From contig NZ_LWIG01000026.1 in assembly GCF_002068095.1 (NCBI RefSeq), forward strand, positions 187,857 through 251,856: a stretch of 64,000 nt of DNA. Direction: 5' to 3'. A program made the translations under genes and the position numbers. Positions 3,929 to 59,387 of this stretch are shown here, in pieces. The stretch is from Bradyrhizobium sacchari. Its GTDB lineage: Bacteria; Pseudomonadota; Alphaproteobacteria; Rhizobiales; Xanthobacteraceae. The first letter of the stretch is position 1. The number at the start of each line of letters is the position of its first letter. The notes beneath the pieces were generated by a model, which was not told where the DNA came from, ran no database searches, and worked only from the letters and a program-made list of their open reading frames with translations.

Positions 3929-4953
3929 TGGCCGACCACGCAGCAAAACCCCTCGCCCTGACCCTGGGAGAGCCCGCCGGCATCGGTCCCGACATCACGA
4001 TTGCGGCCTGGCTCCGGCGCCGCGAGCTGAACCTGCCCGCCTTTTATCTCCTTGGCGACGACGCCTTCGTCGCGCGGCGCGCCAAGGTCATAGGTAAGGC
4101 GCTCGGCGCCGATATCCGGATCGCCCCGGTGAGTGCCAGCGAGGCCGTGGCCACCTTCGCCGAGGCCCTGCCCGTGGTCGCGACCAGAGAGCGCGCGACG
4201 GCCGAGCCCGGCAAGCCCGACGCCACCAGTGCAACGGCAGCGCTCGCCTCGATCCGCCAGGCGGTCGATGATGTACGCAAGGGGCACGCCAGCGCCGTCG
4301 TCACCAATCCGATCGCCAAGAGCGTGCTCTACCGCGCCGGCTTCCGCCATCCCGGCCACACCGAATTCCTCGCCGAGCTGGCGGCCGAGGGCGGTCCCGT
4401 GCCGCAGCCGGTGATGATGCTGTGGTCGCCGCGGCTTGCCGTGGTGCCGGTGACCATCCATGTCTCCTTGCGCGAGGCGCTGAGCCAGCTCACCAGCGAA
4501 TTGATCGTCTCGACCGTGCGCATCGTCGCGGCTGAGCTGACATCCCGCTTCGGCATCGCGCGGCCGCGCATCGCGATCTCCGGCCTCAACCCGCATGCCG
4601 GCGAAGACGGCTCGCTCGGCCATGAGGAGCAGACGGTGATTGCGCCGGCGCTCAAGGTTCTGCGCAACGGCGGCATCGAGGCGAAGGGACCCCTGCCCGC
4701 CGACACCATGTTCCACGAAGCCGCACGCAACCTCTATGACTGTGCGGTCTGCATGTATCACGACCAGGCCCTGATCCCGATCAAGACGGTTGCGTTCGAC
4801 GACGCAGTCAACGTCACGCTCGGCCTGCCCTTCATCCGCACCTCGCCCGATCACGGCACCGCCTTCGACATCGCTGGCACCGCCAGGGCCAATCCGGCCA
4901 GCCTGATCGCGGCGCTGCAGCTTGCGAGCCGCATGGCGGCTGCGAAAACCTGA
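3928..4953 (+). CDS. pdxA: 4-hydroxythreonine-4-phosphate dehydrogenase
   Basis: Enzyme of DXP-dependent pyridoxal 5'-phosphate synthesis; it oxidises 4-phosphohydroxy-L-threonine. The 341-residue length is normal for PdxA. Recognisable segments are [13 protein letters not shown] near the start, [11 protein letters not shown], the metal/substrate motif [22 protein letters not shown] and [14 protein letters not shown]. The ATG overlaps the stop of the surA-like gene (TGATG at 3926-3930), and its own stop overlaps the rsmA start in the same way, so the three genes are probably translationally coupled. A pdxA-rsmA pairing next to surA and lptD is also the order in E. coli. Confidence 0.95.
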
Positions 4954-5810
4954 TGAGTGCGATCGACGACCTCCCGCCGCTGCGCGAGGTCATTCGCCAG
5001 CACGCGCTGTCGGCTCGCAAATCGCTCGGCCAGAATTTCCTGCTCGATCTCAATCTCACCGCGCGCATCGCACGCGCGGCCGCGCCGCTCGACGATTCCA
5101 CCATCGTCGAGATCGGCCCGGGCCCGGGCGGGCTGACGCGCGCCTTGCTCGCGCTCGGCGCCAAACGCGTCATCGCCATCGAGCATGACGAGCGCGCGAT
5201 CCCGGCGCTCCAGGATATTTCCGCGCGCTATCCCGGCCGGCTCGAGATCGTGCACGGCGATGCCATGACGTTCGACCCGCGCCCGCTCCTCGCGGACGAA
5301 CGCGCAAAGATCGTCGCCAATCTGCCCTACAACATCGCGACCCAGCTTCTCATCAACTGGCTCACGATCGAACCCTGGCCGCCCTGGTACGACATGATGG
5401 TGCTGATGTTCCAGCGCGAGGTCGGCGAGCGCATCGTCGCGCGCGAGGACGAGGAGGCCTATGGCCGGCTCGGCGTGCTCGCCAACTGGCGCTGCGAAAC
5501 CAGGATCCTGTTCGACATTTCGCCGTCCGCCTTCGTGCCGCCGCCGAAGGTCACCTCCTCGGTCGTGCGCCTTAAGCCGCGTGCCGAACCGCTACCCTGC
5601 GATCGCAGGCTGCTCGAGCAGGTCGCCGCCGCCGCCTTCGGCCAGCGCCGCAAGATGCTGCGGCAAAGCCTGAAATCGCTGGGCGTCGATCCCGCGCGAC
5701 TTGCCGCGGCTGCCGGCGTCGACCCGACACGGCGCGCCGAGACCATCCCGATTGCAGGCTTTGTTGCCATGGCCCGTGAATTGGCGGATATACGCAGCGA
5801 AGCTGGATAA
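4953..5810 (+). CDS. rsmA: 16S rRNA (adenine1518/1519-N6) dimethyltransferase
   Basis: RsmA (KsgA) dimethylates two adjacent adenines in the 3' hairpin of 16S rRNA late in 30S assembly. The 285 residues contain [10 protein letters not shown] at the N-terminus, the SAM-binding motif [14 protein letters not shown], the acidic [15 protein letters not shown], and the catalytic [12 protein letters not shown] (NLPY). The C-terminal helical domain follows with [12 protein letters not shown]. The start ATG 4953 overlaps the pdxA stop. It is the last gene of the operon; a separate ribosome-binding site serves the next gene. Confidence 0.95.
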
Positions 5811-7956: not shown

Positions 7957-8182
7957 TACTCGGATTCTCTTCGCAGATTAGACTTCAGGCGGGACGTTGG
8001 AACGTCGCGCGCCTCCTGTGCGTTGGCCTTTCATCAAGGCGGTGACCGATCAGGAGCCGATAACAAGACAGGCGCCGCCTGTTCCGAAAAACACGCAGAA
8101 CAAGCGGAAGCGGGCGCGTGGGATGAGAAATCACGCATGGGGGTGGAAGACGCATGGGGGGTGGAAGAAAGGAGACACGAGC

Positions 8183-8359
8183 TTGGCCAACCTCGGCAAG
8201 TGGTACGATCCCATCTCCGAGCGCTGGATCGCACCGCGCGAACCGCGCCAGCAGACAACAGCATCTCAAGCAAACGAGAACCACGTTCTGGAGTTCGAGA
8301 GGACGGTCGAAGTCCAGCGCATCTGGCGAGCGCTTGTCGATTGCTGTGCACGAGACTGA
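8183..8359 (+). CDS. Possible small protein, TTG start
   Basis: A 58-residue reading beginning at TTG 8183, chosen because AAAGGAG lies at 8168-8174 with an 8-base spacer. It reads LANLGKWYDPISERW at the start (Met in vivo) and ends RIWRALVDCCARD. An upstream ATG in the same frame (7997) would give a longer but less protein-like N-terminus. No family recognised. Real or not is uncertain; the ribosome-binding site is the main support. Confidence 0.4.
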   Translation: MANLGKWYDPISERWIAPREPRQQTTASQANENHVLEFERTVEVQRIWRALVDCCARD

Positions 8360-8410
8360 CGGTCTCGTGCGCACCGGCGGAGAACTAGCCGCCGCACGCC
8401 CTGACGCCGC

Positions 8411-8632
8411 ATGACCGATCCCGCATCATACGCAAAACCGGTCGCCATCGCGATCCGATATTTCGCGATCGTCGTCGGCTGCGGCTGCCTGCTGCTCACC
8501 GCCGCCTGCTTCGCGATCGCATGCCAGGTCTTCATTCAGACCGGCGTGTTTGCGCGGTCCTATGCCATGGTGGGGCTCATCAGTGCAGTACTGGGGTATC
8601 TGGCGCTGATGCTGGCACGTGCGTGGAGGTAA
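8411..8632 (+). CDS. Small two-helix membrane protein
   Basis: 73 residues with two predicted membrane helices, about residues 16-41 (IRYFAIVVGCGCLLLTAACF) and 49-69 (AMVGLISAVLGYLALMLA), joined by a short loop. No functional motif. It lacks a clear ribosome-binding site. The hydrophobic pattern makes a chance frame unlikely, but the function is unknown. Confidence 0.55.
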   Translation: MTDPASYAKPVAIAIRYFAIVVGCGCLLLTAACFAIACQVFIQTGVFARSYAMVGLISAVLGYLALMLARAWR

Positions 8633-8810
8633 ATGGGAACCTGGACCTCAGCTGAGCAATAACGCGAAAAGGCTGGCGGCGCGGTGGAACGAGTGCGCCG
8701 CAGGCCCAATTCAAGCCACATCCTCTCCGGATTTGCGGCTCATTGCCACCCAACTCTTTGACGAGAAAGGGATGGTTAAGAGTTGCGTTGTGCGTAACCG
8801 GGAGACCAGG

Positions 8811-9980
8811 ATGGGCAACCGAACCGCGAAATTCGTATCTGCGCTTGTTGGCAGCATCATTGCCGGCGCGCCCCTCGCCGCCGTCTCGCAGAACGCGCCG
8901 GGCGCATCGAGCACCGCCGGTAGCGCGGGTGACTGCCTCGCCTCGCCGAAGGGTTCCGCGCCGCAGGGGCAGCACTGGCACTACCGGGTCGAGCGCGGAA
9001 CCAAGCGGCAATGCTGGTACCTGCGCGCCGAAGGCAGCAAGGAGAGTGCGAAGCCCGTGCAGACTGCGCAGGCCACGAGCGATACGCCGGCGACAGATTT
9101 GCCGTCGCCGGCACCACAGCAGCACGCAGCTACCGATGCACGCGCCGAATATCTGACACCTCGGAGCGCTGCCGCCATCAAGACGCCGGCCCCGGTTGCG
9201 CAAGCCGCGACACAGCCGCAACAATCCGCGGACCAGACCGCGACGAGCGATGCGCAGCAGCCCGCAAGCGCCGCACCCTGGCCCGATGTCGCCGCTACGT
9301 CCAACCCACCCGCGCCGGAGCCGGCACCGGCCGCGCAGGCGAGCGCAAAGCCGTCAAAATCCTCGCTGCCCATGGCACTTGCGGCAGCAGACAGCAGCGC
9401 CGACAAGCCGACCGGCTCGCTCCAGATGCTGCTGCTCGTCGTCGGCGGCGCGCTGGCGCTTGCCGGCATCCTCGCCAGCGTCATCTACCGCTTCGCCGGT
9501 GCACGCGTCCGCGCAAGCAACCACCGCCGCGTGAATTGGGACGATCGTGAGCCGCAACAGCAGGACCGTGCGCCGTGGCTCAATGCGATGCCCGCCACAC
9601 CGCGCGCGCGGCAGCCGCGCCCGATCGACTTCGATGCCGTGCGTCCGCAGGCCGCGCACCTTGCCGCGATCGACCACGAGATCGACGTGATCGAAGCGCA
9701 CGAACCGCCGGCCGCCGCCGAAGCCGCGCAGCATGGTGCGGACGAAATCCCGGTGTTCGACAGGGAGTTCGAGATCGCGACCCGTGCGCCCCGACTGGCC
9801 GCGAACGAGGCCGCTGAACAACATGACGACCGCAATCGGGATGCTGTCGACATCGATATCATCACGACGATGCTGGAACGGCTGCTGAATGAAGGGCCGC
9901 GGCTGTCGCCGGCTAGCCCTGAAGCTGAGCTTGCAGCCCTCGCACAAAGCCGACGAGGCCAGTCCGCCGCTCGCGCTTGA
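8811..9980 (+). CDS. Single-pass membrane protein with N-terminal Cys/Trp motif
   Basis: 389 residues from ATG 8811, which follows GGAG at 8801-8804; longer frames lack a ribosome-binding site. Order: signal-like N-terminus (1-28); a compact motif at about 42-71 with C42, QHWHYRVERGTKRQCWYL and C68; a Pro/Ala/Gln-rich disordered stretch (72-200); a membrane helix (about 204-228); and a polar tail with an acidic, Ala-rich end. From memory, motifs of the CL..PKG..P.G.HW.YR....R.CWYL type recur in other Bradyrhizobium proteins; function is unknown. Its last 68 bases overlap the end of gmk on the other strand. Confidence 0.72.
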   Translation: MGNRTAKFVSALVGSIIAGAPLAAVSQNAPGASSTAGSAGDCLASPKGSAPQGQHWHYRVERGTKRQCWYLRAEGSKESAKPVQTAQATSDTPATDLPSPAPQQHAATDARAEYLTPRSAAAIKTPAPVAQAATQPQQSADQTATSDAQQPASAAPWPDVAATSNPPAPEPAPAAQASAKPSKSSLPMALAAADSSADKPTGSLQMLLLVVGGALALAGILASVIYRFAGARVRASNHRRVNWDDREPQQQDRAPWLNAMPATPRARQPRPIDFDAVRPQAAHLAAIDHEIDVIEAHEPPAAAEAAQHGADEIPVFDREFEIATRAPRLAANEAAEQHDDRNRDAVDIDIITTMLERLLNEGPRLSPASPEAELAALAQSRRGQSAARA

Positions 9981-32272: not shown

Positions 32273-34339
32273 TCAGGCGGCGAATTCGGGCGCGATCGAC
32301 GGGCTGTCGACGCGGACGCGATCTTCGGCAACCCGCCGCTGGAGCCCCTGCAGCACCGCCGCGAGCGGCTGCGGCCGCTGATAGAGGAAGCCCTGCCCGA
32401 ACCTCACGCCCATTTCGCGCATGGCCGCGGCTTGCTCGGGCCGCTCGATGCCTTCGGCAACCAGGGTCAATCCCAGCGTGCCCGCGAGCGAGGCAATGAC
32501 GCCGACGATCGCCTTGTCTTCCGCACTGTCGGGAATCTCGCTGATGAAGGCCTTGTCGATCTTGACCTTGTCGAGCGGAAACCGGCGCAGATGCGCGAGC
32601 GAAGAGTAGCCCGTGCCGAAATCGTCGAGTGCGATCGTGGCTCCCAGCCGCCGCAGCCGATGCAACGTCTCGGAGGCGCTGGCGATGTTGTTGATCAGCG
32701 AGCCCTCGGTGATCTCGAGCTCGAGCATCGATGCCGCGATGTCGAAGCGCGCGCACGTCGCGCGCAGCTCGGCGGCGAGCGAATGGTCGGCGAGCTCTGA
32801 CGGCGGCAGATTGATCGCGATCCTGATATCCGGCCTGCCAGCGGCGGCCAGGCGCTGCAGCGCCCGGCAGGCGTCGGTCAGCACATAGCGCGTCAGGCGG
32901 GCATTGTTGCCGCTGCGCTCGATCAGCGGCAGGAATTCGCCGGGACCGATCACGCCATGGTCGGGATGGCGCCAGCGGATGAGCGCCTCCAGGCCGACGA
33001 CGGCCGCGCTCTCGAGGTCGACCTGGCCTTGATACCAGACCTCGAACTGTCCCTCGGCAAAGCCCGCTGGAATGGCGAGCTCGAGATCCCTGCGGCGGCG
33101 ATAGTCGCGCTGGAGCGCTTCGTCCAGCACCGCGACGGTGCCGGGCGCCTTGCTCTTGGCATGGTAGAGCGCGATGTCGGCGAGTGCCGGCAGATGCGAC
33201 AATTCGGGATCGCCGGCGCGACGGACGGCAAGGCCGATGCTGGCGCGCGGCACAACCTGCTTGTCGTGCAGCCGGATCGGCTCGGAAATCGCATCCAGCA
33301 GTTGGCGCGCAAAGGCCTGCGCCGTCGCCTCGTTGCTGACCTCGGGGCGGATCACCACGAATTCGTCGCCGCCGAGACGCGCGACCCAGTCCTGCGGCTC
33401 GACCGCGTCACGAAGACGTTCGGAAATATGGACCAGGAACTTGTCGCCGGCATCATGGCCGAAGGTGTCGTTGATGCCCTTGAAATCGTCGAGATCGATG
33501 AAGCAGAAGGCGATCAGCGAGTCCGGCGAGCCGGCATCGCCACTCAAGGTCACCAGGCGCTCGGAGAGCGAGCGCCGATTGGGCAGTCCCGTGAGCGGAT
33601 CGTGCGATGCCATGTGGCCAAGCCGGTCGAGCGCGCCCGACGTCGTGTGCTGCATGGCGTTGAAGGCCCTCGCAAGCTGGCCGAATTCGTTCGACGATCT
33701 GATTTCGGCCGGATAGGCCCGGCCATCCTGCTTGCTGCGCTGGATCGCCGACATGATCGCGGCGAGCGGCCTGCCGATGAAGACGTTGGCCGAGATGCGT
33801 ATCGCCACCACGGTGGCGAGGGTTGCGAGCAGGCCGACGATGAGCAGCAGCAACAGCCGGCTGCCGGTGTCGGCATACACGGTCGTGTAGGAATAGGCGA
33901 TCGCGATGCGACCGGCCTGCACGGCGATGTTGCCGTTGCTGTACTTGATCGGACGCGAGACTTCCGCGACCGCCTGGTCCGAGGGGCGCGCCACCACGCG
34001 GGCAATCGCAGCGCCGGTGTCGTCATAGACGGCCGCCGCCGCGATGGTCTCGTCGTGCATGATCTCGTTGAGCACGCCCGTGACCTGGTCATAACGCATC
34101 TTCCAGAGGGGCTCGGCGATCAGCTCGGCGCGACTCTCGGCGGTGCGGGCAATGCGGGCGTCGAGCTGGCGGATCTGCGACCAGAAGCTCGTGGCCTCGA
34201 CGCCTGCGGACGCGAGCAATTGCACCAGCAGCAGGACCGGCACGGTGGCCCATATCATCGCACCAACGACCGAGCGCAAGCGCCGCGGCGCGCCTTGCGC
34301 GTTGCGATCCGGACCGGTCATCGCCTCACCCTCGCGCAT
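32273..34339 (-). CDS. Membrane GGDEF-EAL cyclic-di-GMP signalling protein
   Basis: 688 residues from ATG 34339, which overlaps the stop of the upstream binding-protein gene (TGATG); an ATG at 34321 is an alternative. Order: membrane helix 1 (about 28-46), periplasmic region of about 115 residues (47-161), helix 2 (162-183), HAMP-like linker (184-235), GGDEF domain with intact RLGGDEF at 323-327, EAL domain with EALIRWRHPD at 451 and DDFGTGYSSLAHLRRFPLDK. Both catalytic motifs look complete. The usual RxxD inhibitory site is altered: E314 replaces the Arg in EPQD. Whether it makes or degrades c-di-GMP probably depends on the coupled periplasmic protein. Confidence 0.9.
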   Translation of the reverse strand: MREGEAMTGPDRNAQGAPRRLRSVVGAMIWATVPVLLLVQLLASAGVEATSFWSQIRQLDARIARTAESRAELIAEPLWKMRYDQVTGVLNEIMHDETIAAAAVYDDTGAAIARVVARPSDQAVAEVSRPIKYSNGNIAVQAGRIAIAYSYTTVYADTGSRLLLLLIVGLLATLATVVAIRISANVFIGRPLAAIMSAIQRSKQDGRAYPAEIRSSNEFGQLARAFNAMQHTTSGALDRLGHMASHDPLTGLPNRRSLSERLVTLSGDAGSPDSLIAFCFIDLDDFKGINDTFGHDAGDKFLVHISERLRDAVEPQDWVARLGGDEFVVIRPEVSNEATAQAFARQLLDAISEPIRLHDKQVVPRASIGLAVRRAGDPELSHLPALADIALYHAKSKAPGTVAVLDEALQRDYRRRRDLELAIPAGFAEGQFEVWYQGQVDLESAAVVGLEALIRWRHPDHGVIGPGEFLPLIERSGNNARLTRYVLTDACRALQRLAAAGRPDIRIAINLPPSELADHSLAAELRATCARFDIAASMLELEITEGSLINNIASASETLHRLRRLGATIALDDFGTGYSSLAHLRRFPLDKVKIDKAFISEIPDSAEDKAIVGVIASLAGTLGLTLVAEGIERPEQAAAMREMGVRFGQGFLYQRPQPLAAVLQGLQRRVAEDRVRVDSPSIAPEFAA

Positions 34340-35508
34340 CAATCACCGACGCCGTCCGGAAGCGCCAGGGAGGAGATGAGCGCATCGAGGGAAAAGTCAT
34401 ACCGGCCGCACTGTCCCGCCTTCGCCCTGAATCGCGTGAAGTCGATCCGGTCGAAGGCGCGCGTCTTGATGAGGTCGCCGACCGAGCCGAGGTTGTCGCG
34501 CGTGATGGCGGATGTCTTGACCTCGACCCGGGGGGAAGCGTCGGCGAAATCGCAGCCGTCGGCATAGTCTCGGAGCAGGACGATCGACCAGCCGCCGAGC
34601 AGGAAGTGCCCGCCGTCGGTCAGCAGCAGGCGGCCCGCCTTGATCTCGCGCAGCGCGTCATCCGACCAGTTGAGGCCGACCACCTCGATGTTCCGGCCGG
34701 GTATGAGGCCTGCAGCGGCGATCGCGCGGAGCGCGCCGAGCGCCATTGGATCGTTCCCGGCCCATATGCCGGCGGGCCGGATTTCCTTGCGCGCGGCCCA
34801 GCCCAGGTAATTCGCCGTGACGTGTTCGGCCTCGGACTGCGTCCAGTTTGCGAACAGCATCCGGTCCACCACCACGTCGGGCGCGGCGTCCGCGGCAAGC
34901 TTGAGACCGGCATTGCGGGCGATCGAGGCCGGCGTGATCTCGTCGCCGCCGATGCCGAGAATGTGGATCTTGCCGTCCGGGCTCTGCCATTTCTCGGCGC
35001 GCGCCGTGGTGATCAGCGCGTTCGCCATCCGCGCGCCCGCGGTCTGAAGATCGGTCGTGATGTCGCCGAGCCAGGTCCTGAGCTTCTGACGCGGCGGCCC
35101 GAAGCGGGTTGCATCCTCGCCGATCAGCGTGTTCGAGAGCAGCAGCGTCCTGACCCCGGCGGCCTCGGCCGCCTCCAGGATCGGAACGGCGGCGGATTCC
35201 TCGTTCGAGAGGATGAGGAAGTCGGGCTTATCGGCACGCGCCACGACGCCGAAGCCGAGCTCCTGCATGGTGCGGTAATTGCGCTCGCTGGTCAGCACCT
35301 CGACATGCGCATCGAGCTTGCGGCCGGCGGCCCGCATGGTCTGCGCGACCATGTCCCAGTAAACTTCGCCGGTCTTGCCGGGGCTCACGAAGACGATGTC
35401 GAGGGATTTGGCGGCGGCCGCGTCGATACCGCCGGCCGGCGCCAGCGCGCCGCAGGCCATGCCCACAGCGAGCAACATCCGCAAAAATATCGTCATTATT
35501 CGCGCCAT
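34339..35508 (-). CDS. Periplasmic sugar-type substrate-binding protein, coupled to GGDEF-EAL
   Basis: 389 residues with a signal peptide (to about GGIDAAAA) and no lipobox. The mature part is a type I periplasmic binding fold similar to sugar-binding proteins: SLDIVFVSPGKTGEVYWDMV, FLILSNEESAAVPILEAA, ILGIGGDEITPASIARNAG, AGIWAGNDPMALGALRAIAA and VVGLNWSDDALREIKAG. No ABC permease or ATPase gene is nearby. The stop overlaps the start of the GGDEF-EAL gene, so the protein is more likely a ligand-sensing partner than a transporter component. Ligand unknown. Confidence 0.85.
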   Translation of the reverse strand: MARIMTIFLRMLLAVGMACGALAPAGGIDAAAAKSLDIVFVSPGKTGEVYWDMVAQTMRAAGRKLDAHVEVLTSERNYRTMQELGFGVVARADKPDFLILSNEESAAVPILEAAEAAGVRTLLLSNTLIGEDATRFGPPRQKLRTWLGDITTDLQTAGARMANALITTARAEKWQSPDGKIHILGIGGDEITPASIARNAGLKLAADAAPDVVVDRMLFANWTQSEAEHVTANYLGWAARKEIRPAGIWAGNDPMALGALRAIAAAGLIPGRNIEVVGLNWSDDALREIKAGRLLLTDGGHFLLGGWSIVLLRDYADGCDFADASPRVEVKTSAITRDNLGSVGDLIKTRAFDRIDFTRFRAKAGQCGRYDFSLDALISSLALPDGVGD

Positions 35509-57551: not shown

Positions 57552-58298
57552 CTAGACACCGAGATAGGCGTGGAGCTTGTCCATGTTGGCGGCGAGCTCC
57601 GAATTGGAAAATCCGTCAATGATCTTGCCGTGCTCGACCACATAATAGCGATCGGCGACGGTGGATGCGAAGCGGAAGTTCTGCTCGACCAGGAGGATCG
57701 TAAAGCCCTCCCTCTTGAGCCGCGCAATGGTATGGCCGATCTGCTGGATGATAACGGGCGCAAGACCCTCGGTCGGCTCATCCAGCATCAGGAAGCTCGC
57801 GCCGGTGCGCAGGATGCGTGCGATCGCGAGCATCTGCTGCTCGCCGCCGGACAGCTTCGTGCCCTGGCTGTTGAGTCGCTCTTTCAGGTTCGGAAACAGA
57901 TCGAAGATCTGATCGAGCGGCAGTCCGCCTTCGCGCACGACCGGCGGCAGCATCAGATTCTCGCGGACGTCGAGGCTGGCGAATATCCCCCGCTCTTCCG
58001 GGCAGAACGCGATGCCCATGCGCGCGATCTTGTCGGAGGTGGCGCGGATGATCTCCTGGTTGTTGAACTTCACCGAGCCGGCACGCTTGCCGATGATGCC
58101 CATGATCGACTTCAGCGTGGTGGTCTTGCCGGCGCCGTTGCGCCCGAGCAGGGTGACGACCTCGCCCGCATTCACGTCGAAGTTGATCCCGTGCAGGATG
58201 TGGGACTCGCCATACCACGCTTCGAGGTTGCGAACCTGGAGGATGTTTCCGCCGGTTGCAGCCTTGGCCGGAGCCTCGGCGATCGCAGTGTCAGGCAT
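57552..58298 (-). CDS. livF: ABC transporter ATP-binding protein LivF
   Basis: 248 residues: Walker A LLGRNGAGKTTTLKSIMG, signature LSGGEQQMLAIARIL, Walker B FLMLDEPTEGLAPVIIQQIG and LLVEQNFRFA. The N-terminal 18 residues (MPDTAIAEAPAKAATGGN) are a small extension. Its start overlaps the livG end by eight bases. Confidence 0.95.
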   Translation of the reverse strand: MPDTAIAEAPAKAATGGNILQVRNLEAWYGESHILHGINFDVNAGEVVTLLGRNGAGKTTTLKSIMGIIGKRAGSVKFNNQEIIRATSDKIARMGIAFCPEERGIFASLDVRENLMLPPVVREGGLPLDQIFDLFPNLKERLNSQGTKLSGGEQQMLAIARILRTGASFLMLDEPTEGLAPVIIQQIGHTIARLKREGFTILLVEQNFRFASTVADRYYVVEHGKIIDGFSNSELAANMDKLHAYLGV

Positions 58299-59046
58299 GA
58301 CCGGCTCCCAGGTAGGCTTCCTTGACGCGCTCGTCCTTGGTGAGCTCGCTGTAATGGCCTTGCGCGAGCACCTGCCCGCGCGTCAGCACGGTGATGATGT
58401 CGGAGAGATTGGCCACGACGCTCAAATTATGCTCGACCATGAGGATGGTGTATTTCGCGGAGATGCGCTTGATCAGCGCCGCGATCTTGTCGATGTCCTC
58501 GTGGCCCATGCCGGCCATCGGCTCGTCCAGCAGCATCATCTCGGGGTCGAGCGCGAGCGTGGTTGCGATCTCCAGTGCACGCTTGCGCCCATAGGGCATC
58601 TCGACCGCGGGCGTATTGGCAAACTCGCTGAGGCCGACGTCGTTCAAAAGCTCGCGCGCGCGATCGTTGAAACGGTTGAGCACGGACTTGGAGCGCCAGA
58701 AATCAAAGGAACTGCCGTGCTGGCGCTGCAGCGCGACGCGGACGTTTTCCAGCGCGGTGAGATGCGGAAATACCGCCGAAATCTGGAACGAACGGACAAG
58801 TCCCATGCGGGCGACGTCCGCCGGCGCCATCGCGGTGATGTCCTGCCCCTTGTACAGGATCTTTCCGGCGGACGGTTTGAGGAACTTGGTCAGAAGATTG
58901 AAGCACGTCGTCTTGCCGGCACCGTTCGGGCCGATCAATGCATGAATGCTCCCACGGCGAACCTTGAGCGCAACGTCGCGGACGGCGAAGAAGCCCGCGA
59001 ACTCCTTGGTCAAGCCTTCCGTTTCGAGAATGAACTCATCGGCCAA
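58291..59046 (-). CDS. livG: ABC transporter ATP-binding protein LivG
   Basis: 251 residues. I start at TTG 59046 (reads LADEFILETEGLTKEFAGFF) because GGGGGA stands just upstream and the longer frame to 59277 is not family-like. Walker A LIGPNGAGKTTCFNLLTKFL, then VRSFQISAVFPHLTALENVR. The signature position reads MPYGRKRALEIATTLAL (family consensus LSYGxQR), and Walker B is MLLDEPMAGMGHEDI. First gene of the liv operon on the minus strand. Confidence 0.93.
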   Translation of the reverse strand: MADEFILETEGLTKEFAGFFAVRDVALKVRRGSIHALIGPNGAGKTTCFNLLTKFLKPSAGKILYKGQDITAMAPADVARMGLVRSFQISAVFPHLTALENVRVALQRQHGSSFDFWRSKSVLNRFNDRARELLNDVGLSEFANTPAVEMPYGRKRALEIATTLALDPEMMLLDEPMAGMGHEDIDKIAALIKRISAKYTILMVEHNLSVVANLSDIITVLTRGQVLAQGHYSELTKDERVKEAYLGAGHA

Positions 59047-59387
59047 ACAGATTTCCCCCTGCCCGCGACGCGCGTGGCTGTCCTTGTTGCTTCGGCATTC
59101 CGGAGGTCTTGGAGCCCGTCCGGAACGCCGCCTCCGGGCGCGGAATATGCCGGAGGTGACGGGGGTTAGGCAAGGCGGAAAGCTGAGCAGATCAGGCCTC
59201 CGGCTGGGATACAAATGCTCCCTTAGTCGGAGATGTTTGATGTCGTGCCTGCCCGGCCTCCCGGTTCGCAAAAGCACCGGCCATCAAGCCGTCGTTAACG
59301 GTCTTTCGTCCGGTAGACCAGCCTTCATCAAAAATTTTCCCGCGAGCGGCATCATGCTGCAGGTTTCGATCTGCCGGGAATAGTATT
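59047..59387. other. Spacer between divergent liv operon and PAS gene
   Basis: About 340 bases that must hold the promoters of the minus-strand liv operon and of the plus-strand PAS gene. Several inverted GC-rich runs are present near 59090-59160 (CCGGAGG...CCTCCGG type). I see no convincing promoter hexamers or gene. Confidence 0.45.

Follow-up and report, generated by a model that had tools for sequence, protein, structure and literature searches.

A conserved Bradyrhizobium gene pair as a candidate binding-protein-controlled cyclic di-GMP switch

Within a 64,000-nucleotide stretch of the Bradyrhizobium sacchari genome (contig NZ_LWIG01000026.1, positions 187,857 to 251,856; hereafter the window), a gene for a periplasmic binding protein of the Peripla_BP_4 family overlaps the gene for a membrane receptor with GGDEF and EAL domains, raising the question of whether this binding protein serves transport or sets the output of the receptor. 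The initial annotation, made from the sequence alone, had described a receptor that makes or degrades cyclic di-GMP (c-di-GMP), is set by a periplasmic ligand protein and has no transport genes beside it. This is still the best reading, and we consider it likely that the pair is a binding-protein-controlled c-di-GMP switch, in which the ligand-loaded protein would dock on the receptor and shift its cyclase/phosphodiesterase balance. The observations that carry this reading are the architecture of the two genes, the conservation of the pair, the intact catalytic motifs of the receptor and the presence of homologues with other signalling outputs.

Conservation and layout of the gene pair

A scan of named genomes yielded 62 related loci, mostly from Bradyrhizobium together with metagenome bins and one record labelled Frankia, and the receptor gene lies directly downstream of the binding-protein gene in all 62 (64-95% identity). 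Among 60 genomes of the same genus, both genes are found in the same 22, where they are adjacent by coordinates in each case, and neither gene is present in the other 38 at the thresholds used (E < 1e-90 for the receptor and E < 1e-180 for the binding protein). This identical pattern of presence and absence implies that the pair was gained or lost as a unit and, together with the adjacency in all related loci, rules out a chance pairing of open reading frames (ORFs). The conserved pairing in other genomes, by which the initial annotation had proposed to check its assignment, is therefore borne out. Since radA is found near the pair in 61 of the 62 loci and a TauE-like gene in 60, the pair occupies a conserved place; in the window the two minus-strand genes are the only ones between radA and the TauE/SafE-like gene (neighbour names read from the ORFs).

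Both ORFs, a Peripla_BP_4-type binding-protein gene and a receptor gene, proved real at the positions first assigned to them (Table 1), and the receptor comprises 689 residues from a TTG start or 688 from the ATG of the TGATG junction. The description of the genes as translationally coupled stands in so far as the overlap is present, and 59 of 63 Bradyrhizobium-type loci (the 62 related loci plus the window, as in all counts of 63 below) retain it, with its ATG in the receptor frame in 57; coupling itself is plausible from this arrangement. Two of the four loci without TGATG have ATGA and two have neither. The overlap recurs in a distant GGDEF-EAL pair (L169) whose binding protein is 41% identical. 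In 60 of the 63 loci another ATG or GTG in the receptor frame follows 10-30 nt after the stop codon begins, and in two loci (L057 and L092) a 1-nt indel between the possible receptor starts puts the ATG of TGATG out of frame, suggesting that the downstream ATG may serve as the receptor start, at least there. At L057 the binding protein and the receptor share one frame with a single stop codon between them.

Table 1. Features of the binding-protein and receptor genes in the window
Feature	Position	Strand	Basis
Binding-protein gene, 389 aa, Peripla_BP_4 fold, type I periplasmic binding protein	34339..35508	-	ORF call and Pfam
Peripla_BP_4 domain, residues 38-317	34558..35397	-	Pfam
Overlap of stop and start (TGATG), with an alternative ATG 18 nt downstream of the ATG in it	34337..34341	-	
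Membrane receptor: transmembrane (TM) segment, periplasmic domain, TM segment, HAMP, GGDEF, EAL	32273..34342	-	ORF call, Pfam, motif conservation
Periplasmic single-Cache/PAS-like domain, about residues 44-162	33857..34213	-	TM scan, CHASE5 E 0.001, model, fold matches
HAMP linker, residues 190-232	33647..33775	-	Pfam
GGDEF domain, residues 245-398; active site intact, inhibitory-site Arg replaced by Glu	33149..33610	-	Pfam E 6e-41
EAL domain, residues 426-657; EAL, DDFGTG, LEITE and KIDK motifs intact	32372..33067	-	Pfam E 5e-69

The receptor enzyme and its periplasmic domain

The catalytic motifs, first noted as intact in the window, are so throughout the related loci: GGDEF is preserved in 62 of 63 (the remaining one has AGDEF), and EALIRW, LEITEG, DDFGTGYSS and KIDKAF are present in all 63. 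Glu314 indeed replaces the Arg of the RxxD inhibitory site, as had been pointed out, and this Arg is missing from every locus (Glu in 53, Asp in 4 and other residues in 6), with the Asp of the site present in 63/63. Because the motifs are intact and the inhibitory-site Arg is absent, the receptor is expected to be a bifunctional enzyme lacking canonical product inhibition, and it can probably both make and break c-di-GMP. Its best NCBIfam match, far below the cut-off, is the phosphodiesterase DibA.

TM segments predicted near residues 25-43 and 163-181 enclose a periplasmic domain of approximately 119 residues, in good agreement with the original estimate of about 115, and this domain contains an invariant EPLWK.RY segment. 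A structural model of the domain (predicted local distance difference test score, pLDDT, 76.9) has a long and a short helix, then four strands and an outgoing helix. The first-ranked Foldseek match to this model is an integrative WalK model, aligned over the helices too, and the best match of domain size is the LapD ortholog CdgS9 (4u64; Foldseek E 8e-4; VIA Z 11.9, root-mean-square deviation 2.9 over 117). The resemblance to the LapD family is one of fold, since a PDB sequence search with the receptor-domain profile returned no relative, only a chance match at E 7. The periplasmic domain of LapD, a protein that works with a protease, is a protein-docking domain. The best Pfam match of the window domain is CHASE5 (PF17149), at 19.4 bits against a cut-off of 27, and a homologue that adjoins a related binding protein elsewhere (L150) exceeds the cut-off with 44.5 bits.

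Relatives of this domain also adjoin other types of binding protein, suggesting that the small Cache-like domain may be a docking domain for binding proteins. All four extra-genus relatives found with the window's own domain adjoin SBP_bac_3 genes scoring above the Pfam cut-off. Of 190 alphaproteobacterial genomes searched with a profile of the domain, 21 had matches, at 38 places in total, and a binding-protein gene lies within 400 nt at 15 of these places, window included, a figure possibly biased upward because all 12 seed rows of the profile had binding-protein neighbours. These 15 genes comprise 10 of the SBP_bac_3 family, one SBP_bac_8, three Phosphonate-bd and one Peripla_BP_4 (the window), where two, L213 (E 3.7e-5, 23.9 bits) and L233 (26.8 bits against 27), were counted as binding proteins despite scores just under the Pfam cut-off. 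With one detection method and the window left out, binding proteins make up 6 of 68 domain-adjacent ORFs versus 2 of 199 other ORFs in the same stretches (Fisher p 0.004). The outputs of the domain relatives include kinases, chemoreceptors and GGDEF-EAL proteins.

Several further results on this domain weigh against the proposed switch. No binding-protein gene was seen near 22 of the 38 domain places, where the neighbours of L218, L223, L226, L227 and L241 were run against Pfam and the remainder were judged by phmmer and by eye; the look-alikes at L218 and L227, which have no Pfam support, were counted among these 22. One further place has a YfiR-type gene instead of a binding protein. In hhalign comparisons the Bradyrhizobium sensor domains (with L169) matched those of the gammaproteobacterial GGDEF partners of homologous binding proteins well (E 4.6e-9) and that of the kinase L159 moderately (E 3.6e-6), but gave no good match to the beta- and alphaproteobacterial GGDEF partners or to the kinase L152 (E 0.16, 0.2 and 0.77), so that homology is not demonstrated for every partner domain. 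The kinase partner at L154 and the chemoreceptor partner at L155 have sensor regions of about 260-280 residues, which represent a different domain.

The same genome encodes a second receptor with this kind of domain, a histidine kinase (L213; C4, 5165-7576, plus strand), and the SBP_bac_3-like gene mentioned above is divergent from it at a distance of 114 nt (4115-5050, minus strand). At L241 (5590-6111, minus strand) a kinase with the same sensor domain has a YHS-domain protein directly upstream, and at L245 (4336-4962, plus strand) such a kinase has the YfiR-type protein directly upstream, with no binding protein at either site. L243 resembles L241 by eye.

The binding-protein family and the question of transport

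Profile matches at E 1e-30 occurred in 30 of 398 phylum genomes, and 17 of 397 genomes from the order also matched. Together these searches located 41 places outside the genus, and the 42 homologues analysed here comprise 40 of these neighbourhoods (G851 was left out) plus two extra-genus places below E 1e-20. Sixteen have a signalling partner, five are accompanied by ATP-binding cassette (ABC) genes of the CUT2 type and 21 have neither. The next gene is a co-directional GGDEF gene in seven cases and, at L169, a GGDEF-EAL gene that likewise overlaps through TGATG; at L150 the homologue adjoins the CHASE5 protein (8042-9658, plus strand), the C-terminal part of which reads as a degenerate GGDEF domain that is not recognised by Pfam. 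A kinase gene is next in two cases, a hybrid kinase gene lies 880 nt away behind another co-directional ORF in one, and a chemoreceptor gene is 213 nt away in another. The remaining three are fusions, two to hybrid kinases and one with SBP_bac_3 and GGDEF. Homologues counted as having neither partner include L167, which is separated by opposite-strand ORFs from a kinase gene at 1038 nt. They also include L170, L172 and L173, where ABC-ATPase-like ORFs are 3.3-6.2 kb away; because several of the contigs stop close to the homologue, some partners may have escaped notice.

Among the fusions, L165 (6929-9394) combines Peripla_BP_4, SBP_bac_3 and GGDEF in one protein, and L162 (2674-7779) combines Peripla_BP_4, a dCache-like match and a hybrid kinase. 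Homologues L143-L146, L148, L149, L151 and L153 all derive from one genus (g157), form one group in the tree and lack an adjacent signalling or ABC partner; their receptor, if there is one, must be encoded elsewhere.

The five CUT2-linked homologues bear on the first alternative, namely that the binding protein delivers substrate in the ordinary way to an ABC transporter encoded elsewhere and shares an operon with the receptor only incidentally. It belongs to the same Pfam family as the CUT2 sugar proteins, and its own genome contains CUT2 systems. However, a search of the window with one query for the CUT2 permease and two for ABC ATPases found no ABC gene near the pair, and no match within 20 kb; the nearest are ATPase-like ORFs at 57552-59277, 22 kb away, in keeping with the statement of the initial annotation that no permease or ATPase gene is adjacent. 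Eighteen genes of this genome pass the Peripla_BP_4 cut-off, and the 12 stretches that hold the other 17 include a CUT2 permease in eight and a GGDEF gene in none. Homologous binding proteins are not always found beside ABC genes either, as the counts above demonstrate, and the five CUT2-linked members of a 48-protein tree are set apart on a branch of length 2.3 with support 100/100, in a topology with four long-branched rows and weak support (46/19) for the forks that place this group relative to the rest. An ABC-like ORF occurs within 6 kb of the pair in 22 of the 62 related loci, and in the one examined (L060) it is encoded on the strand opposite to the receptor, about 2 kb beyond it, by eye beside substrate-binding-protein- and permease-like ORFs of its own. 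Taken together with the fusions to kinases and GGDEF domains and the retention of the pair in all 62 loci, these findings make the transporter explanation unlikely, and we reject ABC transport as the main role of the binding protein.

The binding protein, whose N-terminus resembles a signal peptide by reading, was classed at the outset as a sugar-binding type, and this stands as far as the family is concerned: it matches Peripla_BP_4 (PF13407, E 8.3e-16), with further matches to Peripla_BP_3 and, weakly, Peripla_BP_6. Pfam gave no SBP_bac_1, 6 or 8 match at E<=1, no DUF4154 match, indicating that the protein is not YfiR-type, and no oxidoreductase domain, indicating that it is not SUOX-like. 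None of eight NCBIfam matches at E<=1 is a TorT-named model, in a search where the HMMER filters drop weak matches. The closest solved relative is 3h75, a periplasmic sugar-binding domain protein in the PDB (chain A; E 2e-41 by phmmer and 8e-76 with a profile), which covers nearly the whole mature length; no open-licence PMC paper containing both '3h75' and 'periplasmic' was found.

For the ligand itself, a sugar is one possibility. The sugar contacts of ribose-binding protein are aspartates and a glutamine. In the family of the window protein W51, R198 and D253 are invariant (18/18 members), H301 is present in 17, N280 in 15 (Asp in the other three) and N126 in 14. The family was compared, in a distant alignment, with nine Peripla_BP_4 matches from ABC-type regions of the same genome, among them one that looks like a LacI-type regulator. 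His is missing from the H301 column in all nine, Asp occupies the N280 column in seven and the W51 column is a gap in eight, and the part that follows the His column is 39-67 residues long in these nine versus 69-88 in 11 family rows. These family-specific cleft residues imply that 'sugar-type' describes the fold family only. Xylose, rhamnose and ribose are the ligands that a survey predicts for Peripla_BP_4 as a whole (PMC9602780), and a sugar may be the ligand here. The window protein shares the features by which we define a 3h75-type clade in this analysis, namely its position in the tree, in which the deep forks are weak, W51/R198/D253, a GGHF motif and the long C-terminal end.

A proposed switch and its place among known systems

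In the mechanism that we propose, the secreted binding protein would, once in the periplasm, close around a small molecule and, in its ligand-bound or possibly its ligand-free form, dock on the Cache-like domain of the receptor; docking would then move the TM helices and the HAMP linker and shift the balance between the GGDEF cyclase and the EAL phosphodiesterase. By analogy with NspS-MbaA, the undocked receptor might act mainly as a phosphodiesterase and the ligand-loaded binding protein might raise c-di-GMP, a guess at the sign that could equally well prove wrong because PruR-DcpA has the opposite sign. In this way the pair may let an outside chemical set c-di-GMP.

Some considerations speak against the proposed switch. 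The perfect co-occurrence of the two genes may stem from a single operon gain, and the 21 of 42 homologues that lack either kind of partner indicate that the family may have other roles. A model of a read-through fusion, in which the L057 stop codon was read as Gly and 37 rows were added (12 for the binding protein and 25 for the receptor), was uninformative, with a pLDDT of 58.1, a predicted template modelling score of 0.36 and no interface obtained. In addition, adjacent genes for binding proteins and kinases are not always functionally linked (PMC11113362).

The modelled fold of the periplasmic domain also matches direct ligand-binding sensors, and WalK, CitA and other Cache/PAS sensors lie within about 2 Z units of the LapD match in the VIA comparison. 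The receptor might instead read a small molecule in its own Cache-like domain, with the binding protein acting as a ligand-independent brake, in the way that YfiR holds YfiN. The matches to CitA and DctB and the YfiR-type gene beside one relative of the domain fit this explanation, but the invariance of W51, R198 and D253 and the near-invariance of H301 argue for a working ligand cleft in the binding protein, and we regard a mere brake as improbable. That the two proteins share an operon and have different partners, the binding protein signalling to another receptor such as a kinase or chemoreceptor, would accord with the homologues that have no adjacent partner and with those that pair with kinases and a chemoreceptor elsewhere, but is very hard to reconcile with the strict co-inheritance of exactly these two genes in the same order and at close spacing.

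We return to the binding-protein-controlled switch and its relation to characterised systems. In LuxP-LuxQ, TorT-TorS and ChvE-VirA a type I (sugar-type) binding protein acts on a membrane receptor with a histidine-kinase output, unlike the receptor described here, whose output is expected to be c-di-GMP turnover. The initial annotation had likened the locus to NspS-MbaA and PruR-DcpA, a comparison that holds for the mechanism by analogy and fails for the protein families. In NspS-MbaA of Vibrio cholerae and Sinorhizobium meliloti, the accounts consulted place the binding-protein gene upstream of, and overlapping, the GGDEF-EAL receptor gene (PMC8079147, PMC9993111), an arrangement also seen here. 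NspS is described there as a PotD homologue sensing polyamines (PMC9993111) and V. cholerae MbaA as carrying SGDEF/EVL motifs (PMC8079147), whereas the present pair has a Peripla_BP_4 protein and GGDEF/EAL; membership in NspS-MbaA is rejected, given that the binding protein is not PotD-like. PruR-DcpA and PruR-DTB, from Agrobacterium and others, are likewise portrayed as two-gene operons in which a periplasmic ligand protein controls a bifunctional c-di-GMP enzyme, with a kinase-output version also known (PMC13259868), and the present system resembles them in its two-gene operon and in the interchange of c-di-GMP and kinase outputs among its relatives. It differs in that PruR is a SUOX-like pterin protein of about 170 residues and the periplasmic region of DcpA, of about 190 residues, has a WX7E motif (as outlined in PMC13259868), as opposed to about 119 residues here and WX7E at the conserved PLWK Trp in 0 of 63 loci (anywhere in residues 41-165 in 1 of 63). 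Membership in PruR-DcpA is rejected on these grounds as well as on the lack of a SUOX-like protein.

Binding of a substrate-binding protein is presented as a general way to activate receptors, c-di-GMP enzymes included, in a section of PMC9602780. Excerpts of a 2022 review state that, of the binding-protein clan in c-di-GMP networks, only SBP_bac_3 has been studied, as domains inside the enzymes (PMC8846402), and among the open-licence PMC papers listed in literature searches (20 of 32 in one of them) no title or abstract opening describes a c-di-GMP enzyme with a Peripla_BP_4-type partner. We rate the pair as a Peripla_BP_4 variant of the already known binding-protein-controlled c-di-GMP switch. 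Few c-di-GMP enzymes have a known signal, and in this pair, from soil bacteria whose genus fixes nitrogen, an apparently bifunctional enzyme is accompanied by a soluble component of ligand-binding type, so that the signal could be found through ligand screening.

A broader reading, which we put forward tentatively and with some doubt, is that type I binding proteins of the 3h75 kind form a family devoted solely to signalling and free of transport, with its own ligand class. Such proteins would have been combined repeatedly with c-di-GMP enzymes, kinases and a chemoreceptor, in many cases by way of one Cache-like docking domain that accepts unrelated binding-protein families. On this reading, Bradyrhizobium would possess a channel from a plant or kin signal to c-di-GMP. 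A ligand class of its own is suggested because Trp51, His301, Asn280 and the longer C-terminal end mark the family, these residues mostly differing in the Peripla_BP_4 proteins from ABC-type regions of the same genome. It is a testable idea that binding proteins of several kinds share the small Cache-like domain as their docking port.

Beyond the 42 homologues, a further search of the class matched 6 of 369 genomes, and five new neighbourhoods were read. One (L201) contains a 1779-residue ORF that joins the binding protein to hybrid-kinase modules; the other four have no adjacent co-directional partner, and in one of these (L200) a kinase gene is divergent at about 480 nt. Three of eight plasmid records were also opened, giving one homologue with a kinase beside it, one with no partner and one that is unannotated. 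On the Cupriavidus taiwanensis plasmid, the genes for the homologue and a histidine kinase share 1 nt, and a response regulator gene lies beside them on the other strand.

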